Below, piece by piece: positions 55,087 to 56,614 of a DNA stretch of 64,000 nt; position 1 is the first letter of the stretch, and every line of letters starts with the position of its first letter. The stretch is from positions 62,001 through 126,000 of the forward strand of contig NZ_JTJB01000036.1 of the NCBI RefSeq assembly GCF_000794385.1. Direction: 5' to 3'. The DNA comes from Thermus sp. 2.9. GTDB lineage: Bacteria > Deinococcota > Deinococci > Deinococcales > Thermaceae. A program made the translations under genes and the position numbers. The notes under the pieces were generated by a model. That model saw only the letters and a list, made by a program, of their open reading frames with translations, was not told the origin of the DNA and ran no database searches.

Positions 55087-56517
55087 TTAGCCCTTCACCA
55101 CGATGAGGGGGCGCAGGCGGGCCACCTTCTTGCCGATCCCCGCCCCCTCCACCGCCTCCACCACCAGGGAGACGTCCTTGTAGGCCTCCGGCATCTCCTC
55201 GTCCACCGTGGCCCGGGTGGCGGCCCGCACCAGGATGCCCCGCTCCGCAAGTTCCTTGACGAGGTTGCGCTCCCGGGCCACCCGCTTGGCCTGGTGGCGG
55301 CTCATCTTCCGCCCCGCCCCGTGGCAGCTGGAGCCGAAGGAGACCTCCATGGCCTTGGCCGTGCCCGCCAGGACGTAGGAGTAGCGGCCCATGTCCCCCG
55401 GCACCAAAACGGGCTGGCCCACCCGGCGGTACTCCGGGGGGATCTCGGGGTTGCCGGGGCCAAAGGCCCGGGTGGCCCCCTTGCGGTGGACGAGAACCCG
55501 CCGCCCCTTGTGCTCCTCAAACTTGGCGTTGTTGTGGGCGAGGTCGTAAAGCACCCTCAGGCCATGGTCCCGGGGCGCGTAGCCCACCGCCTCAAAGGCC
55601 TCCCGCACGAAGTGGGCGATGAGCTGGCGGTTGGCGAAGGCGAAGTTGGCGGCGGCGGCCATGGCCTGGAGGTAGTCCTGGCCCTCGGGGCTCTGGATGG
55701 GGGCCGCCGCCAGCTGCTTGTCCACCAGCTCAATCCCGTAGCGGGGGGCCACCTTGAGGAAGCGCTCCACGTAGTCCTGGCAGACCTGGTGGCCCAGGCC
55801 CCGGCTTCCCGTGTGGATGAGGACGGTGATCTGGCCCCTAAAAAGCCCGTAGGCCTCCGCGGCCTCGAGGTCGTACACCTCGTCCACGTACTGCACCTCC
55901 AGGAAGTGGTTGCCGCTTCCCAAGGTGCCGATCTGGGGGGCTCCCCGCTCAAAGGCCCTTTCCGAGACCTTGTCGGGGTTGGCCCAAGGGAGGCGGCCCT
56001 CGGACTCCATGAAGCGCACGTCCTCGGGGTAGCCATAACCCCGCTTCACCAGCCACCCCGCCCCCTCCTTGAGGATTTCCTTGAGCTCGCGCTTGCTGAA
56101 GCGCACGTCCCGCCGCTCGCTCCCCACCCCCGAGGGGATGAGGCGGTAAAGGGCGTCAGCGAGCTCCCGCTGGCGGGGGAGGAGGTCTTGTAAAGTAAGA
56201 TGAGAAACTAAGAGACGGACCCCACAATTTATATCAAAACCAACTCCACCCGGGCTCACCACCCCGCCCTCCTCCGGGTCAAAGGCCGCCACCCCGCCGA
56301 TGGGAAAGCCATACCCCCAGTGAATGTCGGGCATGGCCAGGGCCGGCTCCACGATGCCGGGCAAGGTGGCCACGTTCATGAGCTGTTGCAAGGAGGCGAA
56401 GTTTTCCGCCTCCAGGTCCTTCAGGATCTCCTCCGAGGCGAAGAAGACGGCGTCCACCCGCATCTTGCCCTGCTTGGGAATGCGGTAGGTGTAGGGGGCG
56501 ATTTTCTCAAAGTGCAT
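55087..56517 (-). CDS. rtcB: RNA 3'-phosphate/5'-OH ligase RtcB
   Basis: A 476-residue tRNA/RNA repair ligase. Metal and GMP sites: GVGFDINCGVR, GTLGSGNHFLEVQ, HTGSRGLGHQV, VLYDLAHNNAKFEEH, HRKGATRAFGPG and SSCHGAGRKMSR with the guanylylated His. Twenty-one consecutive codons covering the DINCGVR motif (about 56194-56256) use mainly A/T third bases, unlike all of the rest of the gene. Start ATG 56517 follows GGAGGGCGCT; the longer open frame is ignored. Confidence 0.95.
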   Translation of the reverse strand: MHFEKIAPYTYRIPKQGKMRVDAVFFASEEILKDLEAENFASLQQLMNVATLPGIVEPALAMPDIHWGYGFPIGGVAAFDPEEGGVVSPGGVGFDINCGVRLLVSHLTLQDLLPRQRELADALYRLIPSGVGSERRDVRFSKRELKEILKEGAGWLVKRGYGYPEDVRFMESEGRLPWANPDKVSERAFERGAPQIGTLGSGNHFLEVQYVDEVYDLEAAEAYGLFRGQITVLIHTGSRGLGHQVCQDYVERFLKVAPRYGIELVDKQLAAAPIQSPEGQDYLQAMAAAANFAFANRQLIAHFVREAFEAVGYAPRDHGLRVLYDLAHNNAKFEEHKGRRVLVHRKGATRAFGPGNPEIPPEYRRVGQPVLVPGDMGRYSYVLAGTAKAMEVSFGSSCHGAGRKMSRHQAKRVARERNLVKELAERGILVRAATRATVDEEMPEAYKDVSLVVEAVEGAGIGKKVARLRPLIVVKG

Positions 56518-56569
56518 AGCGCCCTCCCAAAACAAAACCGCCGGGCTCTTGGGGCCCGGGCTCACCTTC

Positions 56570-56614
56570 AAGCTACCGCCATATGCGGTATGCGTCAAGG
56601 ATATGCGGTAAAAT
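56570..56614. promoter_or_regulatory. Divergent rtcB / PP2C promoters with a direct repeat
   Basis: rtcB (minus): TTGACG, 17-bp spacer, TAGCTT (56570-56598). PP2C (plus): TAAAAT (56609-56614) 6 nt before its GTG. Direct repeats ATATGCGGTA at 56581-56590 and 56601-56610, 20 bp apart or two helical turns, lie in the rtcB spacer and over the PP2C -10. Confidence 0.6.

Follow-up and report, generated by a model that had tools for sequence, protein, structure and literature searches.

An island of A/T-ending codons at an empty intein site in rtcB of Thermus sp. 2.9, a possible scar of gene conversion

Results

A patch of A/T-ending codons in rtcB

The window analysed here, a stretch of 64,000 nucleotides from a contig of Thermus sp. 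2.9 (NZ_JTJB01000036.1), contains an rtcB gene on the minus strand, with its ATG at 56517-56515 (Table 1). Its match to PF01139 (RtcB) is the only one in this genome. Within the gene lies a block of 21 codons ending mostly in A or T, which consists, from 56250 downward, of GGT GGA GTT GGT TTT GAT ATA AAT on the N-terminal side of the bond between 56227 and 56226, and of TGT GGG GTC CGT CTC TTA GTT TCT CAT CTT ACT TTA CAA on its C-terminal side. The fraction of codons with G or C in the third position (GC3) is 3/21 in this patch, as opposed to 0.93 in the remainder of the 478-codon rtcB reading, which makes it the joint lowest of 109,125 in-frame 21-codon windows taken from 359 predicted genes (385 kb of the same genome). 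Of the remaining low windows listed, some are in our judgement ORFs extended too far at the start, with Arg/Gly/Pro-rich out-of-frame peptides, and the others low-GC genes; no credible gene has an in-frame 21-codon window that goes lower in these 385 kb. By plain base composition, windows of 63 nt with 38% GC or less form only seven stretches in the same 385 kb.

Table 1. Features of the rtcB locus, in window coordinates (a slash in the protein motif marks the insertion bond)
Feature	Position	Strand	Basis
rtcB, RNA-splicing ligase RtcB, intein-free allele	55087..56517	-	PF01139 match (E 1e-174) and ORF reading
A/T-ending 21-codon patch GGVGFDINCGVRLLVSHLTLQ, GC3 0.14	56188..56250	-	codon counts and genome-wide windows
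Empty intein insertion site GFDIN/C, between AAT and TGT	56226..56227	-	15 further Thermus species have an intein of 480-483 aa at this bond
N-extein segment, near-identical to empty G013	56251..56523	-	4 differences in 273 nt
C-extein segment, most similar to that of the intein-bearing sister species (G022)	55087..56187	-	57 differences in 1098 nt
rtcB leader/promoter stretch, near-identical to G013 until unrelated transposase-like DNA	56524..56613	-	sequence comparison; length by eye

The initial annotation of this DNA had pointed to A/T-ending codons in an otherwise GC3-high rtcB, and these numbers bear it out; its coordinates (56194-56256) have to be shifted by 6 nt, to 56250-56188 on the minus strand, and the protein within the patch is not perfectly conserved as it had stated, since Val and Gln stand in place of the Ala and Glu typical of most Thermus. 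The patch is absent from the sister species, G022, although its first codon, GGT, is common to both, so that the change starts at GGA. A comparison of GC3 across Thermus rtcB genes had also been proposed, with a patch in all species as the outcome that would speak against its reading, and a universal patch is not what one sees. Outside the genus, 74 rtcB genes of other bacterial and archaeal taxa show no GC3 dip at the motif (mean difference 0.002, SD 0.108), and the patch is therefore not a property of the active-site motif.

The patch spans a bond that carries an intein in relatives

All 27 Thermus genomes examined have rtcB, and in 15 of them, including the sister species, the gene has an in-frame insertion of about 480 codons exactly at GFDIN/C. 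The insertion matches models of intein N- and C-terminal splicing regions as well as NCBIfam NF038162 (intein-containing RtcB), and in a search of solved structures it matched the RecA intein PI-MtuI. An intein at the same bond is also found in G049, from the genus next to Thermus. Since this bond falls within the patch, the guess made earlier that the patch marks an intein site proved correct. In Thermus sp. 2.9 the site is empty: it is filled in close relatives and vacant here with the frame intact, and the uninterrupted gene falls outside the definition of NF038162, which concerns the same gene and insertion bond.

The LAGLIDADG_3 domain scores above its cut-off in the rtcB intein of G009 and just under it in that of G012. 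The intein of G022 has no LAGLIDADG_3 match, and there Gly replaces both acidic LAGLIDADG residues (ALGGGTLY and FGAGLS, as opposed to ALGDGTLY and FGAELS), which looks like a stage of decay that precedes loss. Two other rtcB inteins, L113 (G007) and L117 (G017), contain single-base frameshifts; if these are neither suppressed nor errors of sequencing, they would cut RtcB short. Occupied Thermus rtcB alleles show a mild dip at the site as well (GC3 0.76 vs 0.89), on average the lowest window of the gene. Empty alleles thus do not account for the whole signal, and the dip in the occupied ones may reflect repeated exchange at the site.

A recombination junction at the edge of the patch

In a tree of extein DNA from which the columns at the site were left out, G022 is the partner of this genome (100/98), and the pair belongs to a larger clade (99/97) together with G007, G011 and G012; G022 and these three all carry the intein. 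An ancestor with the intein is likely, yet unproven, because inteins also move horizontally. The N-terminal part of the gene tells of a different relationship. Compared with G013, whose rtcB is empty and lacks the patch, the gene differs by 1.5% upstream of the patch and by 9.5% (104/1098) downstream of it (Fisher 6e-7). A maximum-chi-square scan with the patch removed places the best breakpoint at nt 278, the patch starting at nt 276 (permutation p 0.001), so that the nearest relative switches over a sharp boundary at the patch. At other genes the two genomes differ by 6.5% (DnaE) and 14.8% (ribonucleotide reductase). G013 is also closer to G022 in the upstream part (5.9%) than in the downstream part (10.0%), a hint that G013 may have received the upstream tract from the lineage of Thermus sp. 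2.9. The N-side of the patch itself, GGA GTY GGT TTT GAT ATA, is nearest to the empty alleles of G014 and G021.

The leader of rtcB (56524-56613, minus strand) is conserved in several Thermus species and contains a terminator-like hairpin, CCGGGCCC..GAGCCCGG CGGTTTTGTTTTGGGAG, preceded by ACCGCATA repeats around TTGACGCATA; from its sequence it looks like an operator or attenuator. In G013 (L003 1-270) transposase-like DNA lies directly upstream of the leader and replaces a divergent phosphatase-like gene found in most other species compared.

Empty alleles of another genus and other intein sites

The same bond was compared in other genera. In g14, a genus of the same order, G065 and G068 carry an intein in rtcB, G070 apparently does too (its junctions are unreadable in the sequence stretch compared), and G067, G069 and G071 are empty. 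Two of these three empty alleles have an A/T-ending patch at the bond, with GC3 of 0.38 in G067 and 0.43 in G071 in genes of about 0.88, whereas windows flanking the site in the intein-bearing G065 and G068 have GC3 of 0.67-0.86. The g14 patches use AGA, TTA and TCA, codons that are rare in the Thermus genes counted. The patch of G071 is nearest to that of G067 (21% different) and is 35-40% different from the relatives otherwise most like G071. Since the rest of the gene is far closer to those other species, the shared patch looks transferred, as by gene conversion. In genera g12 and g13, where the rtcB alleles examined are intein-free, GC3 at the bond is 0.95-1.0.

Weaker patches are seen in empty alleles at two intein sites of the Thermus ribonucleotide reductase, RIR1. 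At site b (STNP/CGEI) many empty alleles have codons like CGT TAT TGG ATT CGT TCC ACT AAC, with a Trp, as opposed to TAC CAG ATC CGC TCC ACC AAC in occupied alleles, and the sister species G006 (occupied) and G026 (empty) show this same contrast. At site c, G019 has a GC3 of 0.52 (codons TCA AAA / ACG ATA AAT CTT CCA AAT), and transversions make up 13/20 of the changes in G019 and 11/13 in G006. No clear A/T patch was observed at RIR1 site a or at the DnaE site, and the effect is therefore not present at every intein site. At the DnaE site (loci L253-L277) the first C-extein Ser codon is TCC in 16/16 occupied alleles, whereas the majority of empty alleles have AGC; two bases differ between these codons, which suggests that the codon was co-converted with the intein. 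In Thermus sp. 2.9 itself the B12-type ribonucleotide reductase has three inteins in one open frame of 2238 aa (L165 8642-15355, contig C1), and its DnaE (contig C47, 1680 aa) has one.

When the five intein sites are pooled, GC3 is lower in empty than in occupied alleles by a stratified permutation test that does not correct for shared ancestry (p 0.0009; p 0.003 without the present rtcB). With ancestry likewise uncorrected, site b alone among the five is significant on its own (p 0.010); the difference is not significant at rtcB (p 0.13), at DnaE or at sites a and c.

Search for a donor

Exact patterns of the patch had no match in 2.9 million viral contigs, and those of two ribonucleotide reductase patches had none in the viral contigs either. 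By blastn, the patch with its flanks gave no match in phage records and only chance matches of 24-28 nt in plasmids. No RtcB protein of a phage or plasmid reached 60% identity, and the matches listed included no Thermus phage; ribonucleotide reductases of phages likewise stayed under 60%. The genome itself did not offer a second copy. Against 80 other rtcB loci the best outsider matched the patch at 43/63 nucleotides, and within the phylum there was only a weak rtcB resemblance. Viral contigs, phages, plasmids and the phylum did not yield an identifiable donor.

Discussion

The patch coincides with an intein site, in a gene nested among intein carriers, at a recombination junction, and comparable patches occur at other empty sites. 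From these sequence comparisons we think that the patch is probably a scar of short-tract gene conversion, in which DNA from an A/T-richer, intein-free homologue either displaced the intein or kept it out. On this view an intein that encodes a homing endonuclease of LAGLIDADG type would circulate in Thermus rtcB at GFDIN/C, and a tract of about 60 nt, reaching about 21 nt from the site in one direction and about 39 nt in the other, would have been swapped for A/T-richer intein-free rtcB DNA, either when a break at the homing site was repaired or when a resident, decaying intein was lost. The route may also be worded as recombination with incoming DNA in a transformable host, and Thermus is naturally competent. 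As the tract encodes nearly the same protein with most third positions changed, its acquisition would have restored an uninterrupted RtcB and possibly spoiled the target of the endonuclease. A single replacement of this kind would account at once for the vacant site, the precise location of the patch, its block of foreign codons and the breakpoint. The foreign A/T-rich donor, the order of events and the resistance to homing are what we infer in this account, and a difficulty for it is that, with a divergent donor, so short a homologous replacement (about 60 nt) would have to make do with very little homology at its ends.

One may also consider that an intein came in together with its flanks from an A/T-rich donor and was later deleted precisely, leaving the flanks behind, as the initial annotation had supposed. 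Co-conversion of flanking codons in intein invasion has already been described (PMC10643990), the patch extends to either side of the bond, relatives have the intein, and the intein-bearing G011 and G012 share with the patch Val, Gln and the C-side codons TGT, GTT, CAT and CAA. However, among the intein-bearing alleles of Thermus and g14 that were examined, the flanks are G/C-ending or mildly shifted rather than A/T-rich (GC3 0.62-0.91), no A/T-rich intein-bearing donor is found among these alleles, strong patches occur in empty alleles only, and the N-side of the patch is like empty alleles and unlike occupied ones. The scenario also requires two events, the second being a precise deletion, which is held to be very rare (PMC3229294). 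The hypothesis is thus weakened, and we regard it as unlikely. The other idea raised at that stage, a recoding by which the site escapes the endonuclease, is a better fit than co-conversion, except that the codons look imported as a block and not mutated singly. Stepwise selection of synonymous changes that block recognition would agree with changes that are nearly all synonymous and centred on the insertion bond; yet few changes should suffice for it, some 20 towards A/T are unexpected in a genome that favours G/C, and the recombination breakpoint coincides with the patch, all of which makes it very improbable.

Alternatively, repeated cuts by the endonuclease at the site may expose single-stranded DNA, leading to clustered C-to-T changes (by deamination or error-prone synthesis) that are then filtered by selection on the protein. 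In this patch C-to-T changes on the coding strand, which deamination could also give, make up 12 of 20; nearly all synonymous C positions are altered, and occupied Thermus alleles, too, have a mild dip. Changes of G to T, G to C and C to A are nevertheless seen as well, patch haplotypes are common to several species, and neither the transversions at RIR1 site c nor the AGA-containing patches of g14 fit C-to-T mutation, so that mutagenic repair appears distinctly unlikely. Pure C-to-T hypermutation fits in part here and as a general cause is ruled out by the transversion-rich patches elsewhere. Since several patches are rich in transversions and in the rare codons AGA, ATA and TTA, import is favoured over deamination. 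Apart from its unusual base composition nothing points to a regulatory, RNA or translation-speed element within rtcB: no promoter-like site or Rfam family was found in the patch region, the patch is not kept even in the sister species, its position is that of the intein bond, and the two intein-free genera show nothing there. Such an element is disfavoured to the point of being highly improbable. Finally, there is one draft assembly per species, and this one is in 62 contigs, so one could suspect an assembly error or a contaminating read; with the frame and the uninterrupted protein kept, inside a 150-kb contig, and similar patches at the same bond in two other assemblies, we give this hardly any credence.

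Conversion by an intein-free homologue bears on current views of how inteins are lost. In the homing cycle of invasion, decay and loss (Goddard and Burt; Barzel et al. 2011, PMC3229294), the original empty site is regained by rare precise deletion. Occupied alleles, alleles with a degenerate endonuclease and empty alleles do coexist among close relatives of this rtcB, but the empty site here is a recoded tract at a recombination junction and not the original site. Soucy et al. (2014, PMC4071816) put forward another route than precise deletion, namely that an intein-free allele from outside the population takes the place of the intein-bearing one by homologous replacement, and this agrees with the recombination evidence in the present gene, although the tract is only about 60 nt and is visible as a codon-usage island. 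In haloarchaeal MCM inteins, extein codon co-conversion and resistant empty alleles are known (PMC10643990); there, too, site-adjacent codons differ between empty and occupied alleles, as with the Ser codon of Thermus DnaE, but one codon and an amino-acid change that blocks splicing are involved, as opposed to about 20 mostly synonymous changes here. The open-access literature that we searched, whose coverage is incomplete, held no description of A/T-rich recoded scars at empty intein sites or of the Thermus rtcB intein.

Because inteins sit at the most conserved residues, hosts are thought to have little room for clean loss or for changing the target (PMC2814812, PMC3229294). With comparable stretches present at further empty intein sites, it would seem that bacteria lose or resist inteins by patching the target with short pieces of differently spelled DNA. 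Synonymous scars at empty sites would then be a readable record of intein loss or resistance in naturally transformable bacteria, their codon-usage signature a cheap way of finding former intein sites in intein-free genomes, and the scars themselves a natural counterpart of the recoded-target idea in engineered homing drives. More tentatively, recoded intein-free haplotypes of about 60 nt could act as transferable immunity that spreads between species by very short conversion tracts, so that a single step would both eliminate the intein and bar it from coming back. We consider this possible but less likely than not; if true, such haplotypes would solve both precise intein loss and immunity at a functionally fixed target.
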